64,000 nt of DNA from Pseudomonadota bacterium (GTDB lineage Bacteria; Pseudomonadota; Gammaproteobacteria; UBA5335): positions 1 through 64,000 of the forward strand of contig PKDC01000028.1 of the NCBI GenBank assembly GCA_002862435.1, read 5' to 3'. Of this stretch, positions 38,296 to 44,557 are shown one piece after another; within the stretch, counting starts at the first letter, position 1; every line of letters begins with the position of its first letter. The notes beneath the pieces were generated by a model. That model saw only the letters and a list, made by a program, of their open reading frames with translations. It did not search any database and was not told the origin of the DNA. A program made the position numbers and the translations under genes.

Positions 38296-39204
38296 TTAGC
38301 CGAGGAAGTCCAGCACGCGCCGATTGAAACCTGTGGGCTGCTCCAGGTGCAGGAAATGCCCCACGCCGGGCCACACCTCCTGGCGGCTGTCCGGATGGGG
38401 AAAGGCCTGCTCCCCGCCGCGATACATCTCCGGCCCGATGCACTCATCCTCGCTGCCCACCAGAATCAGCGCCGGCCAGGGCTTGGCAGAAAACATCAGC
38501 CGCAGTTGGGTCAATGGTTCGGGCGCGCCCAGCAGTTGCGCCGGATTGATCAGGGCGCGGTAATAGGCGGTAGCCTGTTCCAGCCCGCGGGGACGGCGCA
38601 GGCAAGCAATGACCCGCTCAAGTTGCGGGTGATTGGGTTCCAGCCCCGGCGACCAACGCCGCCACAGGGTACGGATATAGGCGAAATCTTCGCGCCGGAT
38701 CTGTGCGCAAGCGCCGGGAAGCTGGAAATAATACATGTACCGCGACCGCATCAACTGGCGCGAATTGATCTGCCGCAGGAAGGTGCGCAACGGTGGCACG
38801 GCTGCCAAAACGACCCGCTCAATGCAGTAGGCCATCGGGCGACCCTCTTGGTGCAGGCCGCAGAGCATCTGGGCCAGGATCGATCCCCAGTCATGGCCGA
38901 CGACGCGCACTGCCTGGTGGGTCGCCACATGGCCCAGGAAATCGTTGAGCATGCGAGCGACGGCCAGGATGGAGGCGCCGCCCGGATGGGGCAGGTCGGA
39001 ATCTCCGTAGCCAGGCAGCAAGGGCGCGAGACAGCGATAGCCTTCATGACAGGCGGCCTCGACGAGGCTTTCGAAGGTCTGGGGCGTGTCCGGAAAGCCG
39101 TGCAGAAGCAGCAATGGACGATTCCCACTGCCGAATTCGTGATAGGCCATCGTCCCGTAGCGGGTTGGCAGGTGTTTCAAAGCCGCATTCCATTGCTCGG
39201 GCAT
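38296..39204 (-). CDS. Alpha/beta hydrolase, epoxide hydrolase-like
   Basis: Alpha/beta-fold hydrolase of unknown substrate. The 302-residue product has the oxyanion motif HGFPDT near residue 36, the nucleophile elbow VVGHDWGS with aspartate 105 (as in epoxide hydrolases and haloalkane dehalogenases rather than Ser esterases), and a catalytic histidine in GVGHFLHLEQP near 283. ATG 39204 follows TGAGGG; ATG 39216 is in frame but without a ribosome site. It lies downstream of the broken alkB-like gene on the same strand, so it may have belonged to the same hydrocarbon-oxidation unit. Confidence 0.85.
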   Translation of the reverse strand: MPEQWNAALKHLPTRYGTMAYHEFGSGNRPLLLLHGFPDTPQTFESLVEAACHEGYRCLAPLLPGYGDSDLPHPGGASILAVARMLNDFLGHVATHQAVRVVGHDWGSILAQMLCGLHQEGRPMAYCIERVVLAAVPPLRTFLRQINSRQLMRSRYMYYFQLPGACAQIRREDFAYIRTLWRRWSPGLEPNHPQLERVIACLRRPRGLEQATAYYRALINPAQLLGAPEPLTQLRLMFSAKPWPALILVGSEDECIGPEMYRGGEQAFPHPDSRQEVWPGVGHFLHLEQPTGFNRRVLDFLG

Positions 39205-39350
39205 TGCATCCCTCATGACGGGTCGTCAGTCGCTTTTAGGTCAGGATTTGGCTCATGCCCACAGTTTGGCGCATTGGAAGCACGACACGGCGTAGATCGC
39301 CGGGCATGTGGTGAAGACCGATCCCCATCAGCCGTGGCAAGTCACATCCC

Positions 39351-39384
39351 CGACACCCGGCGTTTCCGGGTGCCAGGGGTGTCG
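39351..39384. repeat. Nested inverted repeats after the alkB-like gene
   Basis: CACCCGG (39354-39360) can pair with CCGGGTG (39366-39372) around CGTTT, or CGACACCC (39351-39358) with GGGTGTCG (39377-39384). The two pairings share bases and exclude each other. It sits right after the stop of the alkB-like gene on the minus strand, without a T-tract. Confidence 0.5.
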
Positions 39385-39390
39385 CTTCGC

Positions 39391-39720
39391 TCAAGTGTGG
39401 GCGGTGACCAATCCTGCGGGTGCATCGGGCGGCAGATAGCTGTCCAGCGCATCGCCGGGACGAATGAACGGCACCGGCCGGCCCTGTTTCTCATAGTAGC
39501 GTCGGCCGGCGATGATCAGTTCGGGAATACCGCTGCGCAGATTTTCCCGCGCGGCCAGCTCGCGTTCCGCCGGTGTGGCAAATTTCTCATCCCATTCGAG
39601 CAGGCGCGGGGTGATCACCCGATTCCACCAGGCCGGAAACAAGGCCACGAAACCGGAGCCCAGATAGCCCCACGAGGTGGTCATCGCCCGCCCCATACGG
39701 GCCATGGGTTGCAACTCGTA
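39391..39720 (-). pseudogene. C-terminal fragment of AlkB-like membrane hydroxylase
   Basis: About 109 codons that look like the end of an alkane monooxygenase/fatty-acid-desaturase-like protein: a membrane-flanking segment SWGYLGSGFVALFPAWWNRV followed by TPRLLEWDEKFATPAEREL, a layout seen after the last histidine motif of AlkB proteins. It has no start of its own with a ribosome site. It becomes contiguous, in frame, with the upstream fragment (40319 onward) if the insert 39721-40318 is removed: ...EEAV joins YELQPM.... The call as one broken gene is inference from this join. Confidence 0.75.
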
Positions 39721-39815
39721 TTAAAGTTCTATCTCGGAACGGTTCTTAAAACATATCGAATCCGGATTGACAGGGGCATCTTACACTTGGGCGACCGAAA
39801 GTGCCGATTCTGGCT

Positions 39816-39868
39816 CCCTGACGGAACCTATAATTCCGCGGTTAAAGTCACCTTAGAATCCGTCAGGG
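39816..39868. repeat. Inverted repeat inside the insert
   Basis: CCCTGACGGA at 39816-39825 and its exact complement TCCGTCAGGG at 39859-39868, with a 33-base AT-rich spacer that contains TATAAT (39829-39834). It lies just downstream of the insert's gene on the minus strand. It may be a terminator stem, a recombination site or a protein-binding site. Confidence 0.55.
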
Positions 39869-39904
39869 ATGGAATCAATTCATTCCAGAAGTATGATTTT
39901 AACG

Positions 39905-40288
39905 TTACTCGATCACCCTGACACGGATGGGGAGATTGTGAAGATTATCGAGATACTTGTACCATTCCTTCTTTTCTTTAGAAGGCGCGGTATTATAACA
40001 AATCTCGGGGTCCTTGTTGACGGAAGAACTGATCTGCAGTTCATAAGTACAACGATGGACATCTTCACGAGTCCCGTCATACCGAGAAGGATCAAACGTG
40101 AATCCTTTTGGCGGGAGTTCATACGGCTCAAGCAGACCCATTTCCCGTTTGTCCTGTTCGGTCATTCCCGAATAGTCGGGAAGAATCAGTTCCCGCTCTA
40201 TGTAAGGTTTAACTGGCGGAAATTGGTTCATCCTCTCGACACAACCCGAGAGCAGGATCATTGCAGCAATAATTGGTTCAGCACGCAT
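39905..40288 (-). CDS. Putative lipoprotein encoded in the insert, unknown function
   Basis: A 127-residue product that I do not recognise. The N-terminus has a short hydrophobic run IIAAMILLSGC with a lipobox (LSGC, Cys16), suggesting a lipid-anchored envelope protein. The rest is polar, with acidic and basic segments (MTEQDKREMGLLEPYELPPK) and three further cysteines candidates for disulfides. A GGGGA lies nine bases before ATG 40288. Base use differs from neighbours, consistent with recent acquisition. An opposite-strand frame (39869-40294) is also open but has no such features. Confidence 0.5.
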   Translation of the reverse strand: MRAEPIIAAMILLSGCVERMNQFPPVKPYIERELILPDYSGMTEQDKREMGLLEPYELPPKGFTFDPSRYDGTREDVHRCTYELQISSSVNKDPEICYNTAPSKEKKEWYKYLDNLHNLPIRVRVIE

Positions 40289-40318
40289 CTTTGAAAATCC
40301 CCTTGTAATCAGGATGGA

Positions 40319-41306
40319 TACCGCTTCTTCCACCTGGGCATTGGAATGTTGGTGCAAGTGGCGCGAGATGGCCGAGATCAGCCAGTAGGTCATGCGGTGG
40401 GCATCGTCCCAGGCATGGCGCGGCTGGAACGGCTGGGTCGGCATCCGCACCAGCCCCGTGCTCGATGTAGTTGGCGGCCTCCAGCCCGGTATGGGCCAGG
40501 ATGCCGATCGCGAGGAAGGCCAGCAGGTCCCATGCACCGGCGGCATGAAAGAACATGGTGGCAATCAGCACTTCGATGCCCCAGCCTTGCAGGGTCCCGT
40601 TGCGCCAGCTCCAAAGGGGCTCGCCGAGCTTTTCCAGCCGTTGCTTTTCCAGCGCCCAGGTCATGCGGTATTGCCCAATCACCGAGCGCAACCGGAACCG
40701 CCAGAAGCTTTCGCCGCGGCGGGCCCAGGACGGATCGGCCGCCGGGCCGACCGGATTGTGGTGGCCGTAGGGATGGCGGATGGTGAAGTAGCTGAACATG
40801 CCAAACGCCGAACCGATCCGGGCCGCGACCACCGACTTGAGGTCGTAGGTGCGATGGCCCAGGTTGTGCCCGATCGCCACGCCGGCGATTGCGCCCGCAC
40901 CCGCGGCCAATCCCAGCCCGCCCAGCAGGGTGCCGATGTGGTCATGGGCCGCGTGTGCCGCCACCGGGTCGAAACCCGTCAGTGATTGGACTGCCGCGCC
41001 GATGCCGAACAGGTCGATGCCGTTGGGGAGACCGAGCATCCAGGCAAACAGGATGACCACGGCCGCCATCAGGGGCTGACTGAGGATTTCCATCCAGATC
41101 AGCAGATTGGGGTGGCGCCACGTGCCTTCGTAGTGGTGGGTGTCCTCGCCGAAAAACAGATCGCCCACGATGACGTAGGCGCCCAGCAGCAGGGTATAGA
41201 TCAGCAAGCCCGAACCGCCGATGATGAAAAGTGGAATTGAAAGCCCCAGCAACAGGGGAAACTGGAAAAACTTGACGTAGTCCGAGACGGAACGAATGGC
41301 ATCCAT
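40319..41306 (-). pseudogene. N-terminal part of AlkB-like membrane hydroxylase, frameshifted
   Basis: Reads from ATG 41306 (GAGGAGG ribosome site) as a multi-helix membrane protein of the alkane 1-monooxygenase/fatty-acid desaturase superfamily. The di-iron histidine motifs are present: GHNLGHR, HPYGHH and NYIEH. Just after NYIEH (about 40455-40460) the frame is lost; the protein resumes one frame over as GLVRMPTQPF..RHAWDDAHRM and RHLHQHSN, the fourth histidine region. The frame is then cut at 40318 by the AT-rich insert. In the original frame translation runs on to a meaningless C-terminus ending at 40278. A one-base insertion in the GGGG run, or a two-base loss, explains the shift. Confidence 0.8.
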
Positions 41307-41769: not shown

Positions 41770-43344
41770 TCACCGCGCGCGCAGATGAGGAAACAGCAAT
41801 ACGTCGCGGATGGAGGGCGCGTCGGTCAGCAGCATCACCAGCCGGTCGATGCCGATGCCCTCGCCTGCCGTGGGGGGCAGCCCATGCTCCAGCGCGACGA
41901 CATAATCGGCATCAAAGAACATGGCCTCGTTGTCGCCGGCGTCCTTTTGCGTGACCTGGGCCTGGAAGCGGCGCGCCTGATCCTCGGCGTCGTTCAGTTC
42001 TGAGAAGCCGTTGGCGATCTCCCGGCCACCCACGAAAAACTCGAAGCGGTCGGTGATTTCGGGATCGGCATCGTTTGCGCGGGCCAGGGGTGAGACTTCG
42101 GTGGGATAGGCGGTGATGAAGGTGGGCTGTAGGAGCCGCGCCTCCGCCGTCTTCTCGAATAGTTCGATCAGCAGCTTGCCCCAGCCGGCATCCGCTTTCG
42201 CATCAATGCCCTGGGCGTGGCAGGCGGTGGCCAGATAATCCCGCTCGCGCAATCGATTGGGGTCGAGCTCCGGATTGTGACGCGCGACCGCCTCGACGAC
42301 GCTGAGGCGCTCGAAGGGCAGGCCCAAATCGAGGGCAAGTCCCTGATAGCTGAATTGCAGCCCGCCGGTGATGTCCTGCGCCAAACTGCGCAGCAGTTCC
42401 TCGGTCGTGTCCATCAGGTCGCGGTAATCGGCGTAGGCCTGATAGAACTCCAGCATGGTGAACTCGGGATTGTGCCGGGTGGACACGCCTTCGTTGCGGA
42501 AATTGCGGTTGATTTCATAGACCCGCTCGAAGCCGCCCACCACCAGGCGCTTGAGATACAGCTCCGGGGCGATGCGCAGGTACAACGGCATGTCCAGGGC
42601 ATGGTGGTGGGTGACGAAGGGCCGGGCGGTGGCGCCGCCCGGAATCGGCTGCATCATGGGCGTTTCCACTTCCAGGAAGCCGCGTTCGTCGAAGAAACGC
42701 CGGATGTGCTGGACGATGCGGCTGCGCGTGCGGAAGCGCCGCGCGGCCTCGGGATTGGCGATCAGGTCCAGATAGCGCTGGCGGTAACGCGTCTCCTGGT
42801 CCTGCAGGCCATGCCATTTCTCCGGCAGCGGGCGCAGGGACTTGGTGAGCAAATGCAGTTCACGCACGCGCACCGACAGCTCGCCGGTGCGGGTCTTGAA
42901 GAGCGTGCCTGTGGCCCCGACGATGTCGCCCACATCCCAGGTCTTGAACGCCGCGTAGAGCGCCTCGCCTACGGCCTCGCGCTGCACGAAGAGCTGGATA
43001 GGCCCGCTCATGTCCTGCAGCGTGGCAAAACTGGCCTTGCCCATGACGCGCTGGGCCAGCATGCGTCCGGCCACGCTCACCTCGACGGGCCTCGCCTCCA
43101 GAGCTTCGTTGTCCAGGGCGCCATAGCGGCCCTGTAGTTCCGCGGCCAGCGCGTTGCGACGAAAATCGTTGGGAAACGCGGGCCCCGCTTGACGCAGTAG
43201 TTCCAGCTTCGCGCGCCGCAGGGCGATGAGGGCATGTTCTTCCGCGTCGGCGATATCCGTCGGCGGCCATGACGGTGCAGCGATTCCGGAGGTATTGATC
43301 CCCTGGGTCTGTGGCTTGGCCGGCTGGTCATCATCGGGCGTCAT
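41770..43344 (-). CDS. lysS: Lysyl-tRNA synthetase, class II
   Basis: Charges tRNA-Lys. The 524-residue product has an OB-fold anticodon-binding domain (about 80-190) after an N-terminal extension, class II motif 2 [20 protein letters not shown], and motif 3 [15 protein letters not shown] followed by the typical DVLLFPHLR end. The frame is open to 43446; ATG 43344 has CCAGGA eight bases upstream. It lies 105 bases after prfB, the prfB-lysS order of many Proteobacteria. Confidence 0.97.
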
Positions 43345-43449
43345 GGCATCGTCCTGGGGTGAAGTGGCGGCGGCTGCCATCCGGCACCGCTGCGCAGAAA
43401 TCGAGTAAAACCGATGCGTGCCTCGCTGTATGCCAGGCGCCCGCAATCC

Positions 43450-44557
43450 TCACAGGCCACTCTTCAGGCTGGCCTCGATGAAAGGGTCGAGATCGCCATC
43501 CAGCACCACCTGGGTATTGGCGATTTCCACGCCGGTGCGCAAATCCTTGATGCGCGACTGGTCCAGCACGTAGGAGCGGATCTGGTGACCCCAGCCGATG
43601 TCGGACTTGCTGTCCTCCAGCGTCTGCTTCTCGGCGTTGCGTTTTTGCAATTCCATCTCATAAAGCTTGGCCTTGAGCATGGCCATGGCCCGATCCCGGT
43701 TCTGATGCTGGGAACGTTCGGTTTGGCAGGCCGCCACTGCGCCGGTTGGTACATGGGTGATGCGCACGGCCGATTCGGTCTTGTTGACGTGCTGACCGCC
43801 GGCACCGCTGGCGCGGTAGACATCGGTGCGCAGGTCAGCCGGATTGATGTCGATCTCGATGTTGTCGTCCACCTCCGGCGAGACGAACACGGCCGAGAAC
43901 GAGGTATGGCGGCGGTTGCCCGAGTCGAACGGTGACTTGCGTACCAGCCGGTGTACGCCGGTCTCGGTGCGCAGCCAGCCATAGGCGTAAGGCGCTTCCA
44001 CCCGGAAGGTTGCGCTCTTGATGCCCGCCACTTCCCCCGCTGAGACTTCCAGCAGTTCAGCCTTGAAACCGCGTTTTTCCGCCCAGCGCAGATACATGCG
44101 GAGCAACATCTCCGCCCAGTCCTGCGCCTCGGTGCCACCCGAGCCGGCCTGGATGTCGACGAAGCAGTTGGCGCTGTCCAACTCCCCCGCGAACATGCGG
44201 CGGAATTCCAATTGCTCCACCTCGCGGCGATAGCGCGCCTCGTCCTGGGTGATGCCTTCCAGCGCCGCCTCGTCCTGTTCCTCGCGCGCCAGCTCCAGCA
44301 ACTCCAGCGCATCGTCAATGCCGGCTGTCAGCCGGTCCAGGCCGTCCACCACCGCGAACAGATCGGCCCGTTCGCGTCCCAGCTTGCGTGCCCGCTCCGG
44401 GTCATTCCAGACCTCCGGGACCTCCAGTTCCCGCTCGACCTCGGTCAATCGGTCCTTTTTTTCAGCGTAGTCAAAGATACCCCCGAAGGTCATTCAGGCG
44501 GGACTTGAGATCCAGCAGACTCTGGCGGGGCAGGTTGAAATCGGTCAGATCGGCCAT
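43450..44557 (-). CDS. prfB: Peptide chain release factor 2, with programmed +1 frameshift
   Basis: Releases peptides at UGA and UAA stop codons. The gene begins at ATG 44557 with 28 codons ending ...RGYLCTT-type leucine, then an in-frame TGA at 44471-44473. A +1 shift on CTT TGA C continues as [13 protein letters not shown] to 43450, giving 368 residues (E. coli 365). The body has the stop-recognition SPF tripeptide (KSPFDSG) and the GGQ motif in [15 protein letters not shown]2 shortage makes ribosomes pause at the UGA and shift, an autoregulation well established for prfB. Confidence 0.96.
44470..44485 (-). promoter_or_regulatory. RF2 programmed frameshift site
   Basis: Minus-strand CGGGGGTATCTTTGAC: an internal Shine-Dalgarno-like GGGGG three bases before the slippery CTT-TGA-C, spaced as in the E. 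coli prfB signal (AGGGGGTATCTTTGAC). The in-frame stop is TGA at 44473-44471. Confidence 0.95.

Follow-up and report, generated by a model that had tools for sequence, protein, structure and literature searches.

A probable AlkB-family pseudogene carrying a phage-like DNA fragment in a gammaproteobacterial draft genome

Introduction

Members of the AlkB family of membrane di-iron hydroxylases, such as FtAlkB (PDB 8F6T) and the P. putida GPo1 type (8SBB), fall within Pfam FA_desaturase, are about 430 aa long, and display the motifs GHxxxH, HxxGHH and NYxEH in colinear order. The nine iron ligands of AlkB have been described as invariant (PMC10110569). One of them, His314 of FtAlkB, ligates Fe1 (PMC10113152).

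The gene described here shares length, colinearity and these three motifs with the family, but it lies in three pieces, and its third histidine box reads HxxQH where AlkB has HxxHH. It is located on the minus strand of contig PKDC01000028.1 (assembly GCA_002862435.1, Gammaproteobacteria, UBA5335), whose first 64,000 nt constitute the window of this analysis. The gene, of about 436 codons, is probably a pseudogene interrupted by a phage-derived insert, with both the decay and the insertion being real.

Table 1. Positions in the window of the probable alkB pseudogene, its insert and the neighbouring genes
Feature	Position	Strand	Basis
Intact alpha/beta hydrolase gene, neighbour of alkB	38296..39216	-	Context
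alkB C-terminal piece, 109 codons + stop (YELQPM..., last membrane segment, EWDEKFATPAERELA)	39391..39720	-	tblastn
Foreign insert, 604 nt	39721..40324	.	Homologue junction, composition, repeat and copy search
Phage tail-protein gene, 3' end only (~65 codons + stop), truncated at the left edge of the insert	39721..39921	+	Phage matches, HMM, PHROG
Lipoprotein-like ORF, 127 aa, lipobox LSGC, convergent with the tail fragment	39905..40288	-	Translation
alkB middle piece, 44 codons (GLVRMPTQPF...RHLHQHSNAQVEE), second frame	40325..40456	-	tblastn, alignment
alkB frame break, GGGG in gene orientation	40454..40457	-	One-codon gap in tblastn and codon alignment
alkB N-terminal piece, 283 codons (M to NYIEH)	40458..41306	-	tblastn to homologues, residues 1-283
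Intact lysS, neighbour of alkB	41770..43446	-	Context
prfB, paired with lysS	43450-44493		Conserved pair in relatives

The broken hydroxylase gene

When the three minus-strand pieces (Table 1) are joined, they encode one AlkB-family di-iron hydroxylase of 436 aa. Each was translated by itself and compared by tblastn with loci of this genome, of related genomes and of public ones; all three match an identical set of homologous genes, colinearly and without overlap. This agrees with the sequence-only reading, which had found the histidine motifs split between two frames and the C-terminal membrane segment 0.6 kb off. The N-terminal piece, with the boxes GHNLGHR, RHPYGHH and NYIEH, matches Pfam FA_desaturase (1e-17) and has a codon-model score of 102.9. 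The middle piece (GLVRMPTQ...NAQVEE) reaches at most 77% identity over 44 aa and the C-terminal piece at most 56% over 79 aa, the latter match picking up at the very next residue after the middle piece. Besides Pfam, the alkane monooxygenase structures 8F6T (4e-31) and 8SBB support the family assignment.

Twenty intact homologues span both joins in full-length alignments (32-55% identity), which upholds the earlier view that an AlkB-family gene is broken here; the best is from a Pseudomonadales MAG (L021; 54.6% over 405 aa). The rejoined protein thus has the full-length colinear similarity of a family member, but neither the complete set of nine iron-ligand histidines nor a single uninterrupted frame. 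The contrary case named by the sequence-only reading, in which relatives share the arrangement but make intact shorter proteins, was not encountered: none of the homologues is split, and all are uninterrupted genes of about 400-450 aa.

Several features of the relatives deserve mention in their own right. The first box reads HNxxH instead of the usual HExxH (GHNLGHR, AHNMIHR, GHNTTHR) not only in the window but also in its closest relatives (L002, L005, L011, L017 and L021), and so looks like a subclade feature and not damage. A genome of the same family (G004, contig C16) carries a tandem pair of AlkB-family genes (L007/L011/L017) that ranks with the nearest relatives of the broken gene. Another AlkB-family ORF (L006; G005, contig C166) sits in an open frame that counts 688 codons and exceeds its homologues by about 250 on the N-terminal side.

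Between NYxEH and GL, every homologue inspected has a full codon (Tyr, Gln or His), the window a single base. The window thus falls two bases short of the homologues here, and a 2-nt deletion is the best reading of the frame break; one surplus G in the GGGG run would not account for the missing codon. The earlier suggestion of a sequencing error is likewise disfavoured, since a one-base correction leaves the protein one residue short inside NYxEHxGL relative to all homologues, a metal-ligand histidine is also gone, and the window has no other obvious frame break. By a codon model trained on the window, coding sequence there falls into about 57 stretches, closely packed and each in a single frame, and only alkB is visibly broken; this argues against a general indel error, although it does not prove the individual bases.

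The third histidine box, whose damage the sequence-only reading had not remarked on, is RHLHQHSN in the middle piece and RHSHHHxD in the homologues (substitutions H319Q, S317L and D322N). His319 is invariant in 20 of the 20 aligned homologues and corresponds, within the HSDHH box, to His314 of FtAlkB (alignment to PDB 8f6t). Relative to the nearest homologues, the codons TTG, CAA and AAT can each be explained by one GC-to-AT change, a pattern that would be expected in decay. Overall, the substitution load at otherwise conserved sites is only mildly elevated, with three private changes at invariant columns and seven at columns conserved at 90% or more, and some homologues have more; this counts against a pseudogene. 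The longest product of the broken gene, 342 aa without the third box and the C-terminus, should be inactive.

Genomic context and paralogues

The gene lies between an alpha/beta hydrolase gene and the lysS-prfB pair. A relative of the hydrolase, 74% identical, occurs at a different place in one genome of the same genus. In the comparison of the locus with relatives, which had been proposed earlier, the prfB-lysS pair proved to be conserved, with no alkB downstream of it in the stretches examined; the alkB genes that relatives do carry are all uninterrupted. The genome encodes four AlkB-family genes, and because three intact paralogues remain in single open frames (contigs C13, C28 and C3), loss of the present copy would probably be tolerable. 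Elsewhere, contig C14 of the same genome carries a degenerate integron-integrase remnant (about 39207-39741; L054/L064), with IntI-like N- and C-terminal segments in short broken frames, adjoining a heavy-metal ATPase-like gene.

The insert and its contents

The sequence-only reading had recognised a clean insertion, of 598 bases at 39721-40318, with GCG GTA joined in frame to TAC GAG. The insertion stands; its size and the join do not. In homologues, YEL follows VEE or VEH without a gap, or WxL follows VEF, and none of them contains the codons GCG GTA (A-V), which are therefore assigned to the insert, giving a length of 604 nt. Its edges have three equivalent placements, since flank and insert both end in AA. 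At 46% GC, compared with 61% for the window, the insert is the lowest of all 604-nt bins.

Beyond what was noticed earlier, the left end of the insert codes for the C-terminal end of a tail protein of phages. The plus strand is open from the first base of the insert to a stop codon at 39921. The encoded peptide matches 70 phage records, including D3112 orf53, Ab18 gp71 and RHph_X2_30, as well as the tail protein of the Marinobacter phage-plasmid phiTHAF39 and an IMG/VR contig (L068; 58% over 31 aa). In the cases inspected, the genes concerned encode 724-775 aa, and the match falls at the stop codon or close to it. A profile of six phage C-termini, built from sequences found with the tested peptide itself, gives the peptide 36.6 bits, against 7.4 for the best of 2000 shuffles, and phrog_1101 (tail protein) of PHROG matches with E = 0.003. 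Several of the single BLAST matches are weak (E 0.01-1), and what carries the identification is that independent collections agree on both the family and the position. By this homology, the left end of the insert is shown to be the truncated 3' end of a tail-protein gene of the phrog_1101 type, and the insert as a whole is best read as a phage-like DNA fragment cut inside that gene. One further match (L069) was set aside, as it depended on its exact search seed and falls in the N-terminal region of another phage protein. The source phage was not found, nor are there relatives that would tie the lipoprotein-like ORF to a phage; both points weigh against the preferred account of the locus.

Inside the tail-gene fragment, downstream of the lipoprotein-like ORF, lies a 16-nt inverted repeat (TCCCTGACGGAACCTA / TAGAATCCGTCAGGGA; 39815-39869). 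This hairpin is possibly a terminator, although without a T run. It occurs only once in the genome and is thus no repeated element.

The second feature of the insert is the ORF of 127 aa, preceded by AAGGGG, a run resembling a ribosome-binding site. No convincing relatives of it were found in Pfam, PHROGs, PADLOC, NCBIfam, plasmids, phages, IMG/VR or several hundred genomes; weak matches in other genomes (the best, L029, 40% over 57 aa, E 9e-4) were not convincing. An ORF of 141 aa on the opposite strand has no phage match. It is conceivable, if doubtful, that the 127-aa ORF is an intact orphan phage lipoprotein gene, delivered into a dead hydroxylase gene by capture at a break and not by a transposase or integrase. 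If so, it would possibly serve in superinfection exclusion.

Origin of the interruption

The lesions themselves are shown: the frame of this alkB is broken by the loss of 2 nt after NYIEH, an iron ligand of the third box is changed from His to Gln, and foreign DNA of 604 nt lies between that box and the last membrane segment. The following course of events may account for them. With three intact paralogues present, the gene would have been dispensable, and a random fragment of phage DNA would have been captured at a double-strand break. The favoured guess for the route is end joining with 2-nt microhomology and essentially no loss of target sequence, a transposase, integrase or intron not being involved.

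The first alternative is that misassembly of metagenome reads placed the phage piece of 604 nt in an intact alkB and perhaps also produced the frame break. The draft assembly has 70 contigs and an estimated contamination of 6.2%, and the insert is compositionally foreign, has no second copy and ends inside a phage gene, all of which would suit an artefact. However, misassembly normally joins two contigs, whereas here both host flanks are exactly in register with the homologues. The frame break and the His-to-Gln change are separate from the insert and do not fall within it, and elsewhere the window is free of comparable errors. An artefact is unlikely.

A prophage, for instance D3112- or Mu-like, might instead have integrated in alkB and since been almost entirely deleted. 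The tail-gene 3' end would fit, as the corresponding gene of D3112 lies near the right end of the phage genome, and the lipoprotein might represent an adjacent lysogeny gene. On the other side, both host junctions are exact by comparison with homologues, so that the deletion must have stopped precisely at the host boundary; there is no 5-bp target duplication, and in D3112 two further genes follow the tail gene. Decay of a prophage is accordingly regarded as distinctly improbable.

Less probable still is a small mobile element, whether a non-autonomous IS or MITE, an integron cassette or a self-splicing intron. Hints of one could be seen in the lone short ORF near an end of the insert, in the 16-nt hairpin and in the integron-integrase remnant of the genome, but one end of the insert lies inside a phage gene. 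The insert has no terminal inverted repeats (the best TIR-like match is equalled by 257 of 500 shuffles), no target duplication beyond the 2-nt AA repeat and no second copy on the contigs of its own genome, which sets aside transposons, insertion sequences and MITEs. A weak 30-bp match on contig C22 (E 0.13) is taken as chance, as it falls in an ordinary gene-dense locus with ORFs that look, by eye, like ksgA, apaG and apaH. A TA duplication of the Tc1/IS630 type would require GCGGTA to be host sequence and is rejected, since homologues lack these bases. By inspection, neither edge has the GTTRRRY/RYYYAAC boxes of an attC site, nor is the hairpin in the tail fragment attC-like, and no Rfam match to a group I or II intron was obtained at E<=5.

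A functional split or frameshifted alkB, expressed by programmed frameshifting or as two cooperating half-proteins, is scarcely credible: strong codon bias is kept in the N-terminal frame, but no homologue is split, the iron ligand is gone, and the break offers only a GGGG run and no long slippery site.

Comparison with known systems

Decay with capture of a phage fragment remains the preferred reading, and the locus looks like a genuine instance of ordinary gene decay in a known family, with an insert that is unusual without being categorically new. As a correction to the annotation, this alkB should be left out of any count of the organism's hydrocarbon-oxidation genes; three other copies exist in the genome. 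In our judgement, such captures are hard to recognise, the inserted piece being usually unidentifiable; the present locus offers a small example that can be read, with part of a phage gene lying inside a chromosomal gene and no mobile-element signature. Literature searches for pseudogenes of alkB and for the capture of phage DNA returned nothing directly relevant.

The tail fragment shares the motif LxSVRDGIxSxQxxDxxxxR near the stop codon with the tail proteins of the Pseudomonas phages D3112 (orf53) and Ab18 (gp71), the Rhizobium phage RHph_X2_30 and the Marinobacter phage-plasmid phiTHAF39. In contrast to these, only the last 65 or so codons of the gene are present here, and the next gene is convergent and unrelated to theirs. 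With ordinary bacterial pseudogenes, which arise through indels and foreign DNA, the locus has in common a frame break, the loss of a ligand and an insertion in a redundant gene. It differs from them in the nature of the inserted piece, which is a fragment of a phage gene and not an insertion sequence.
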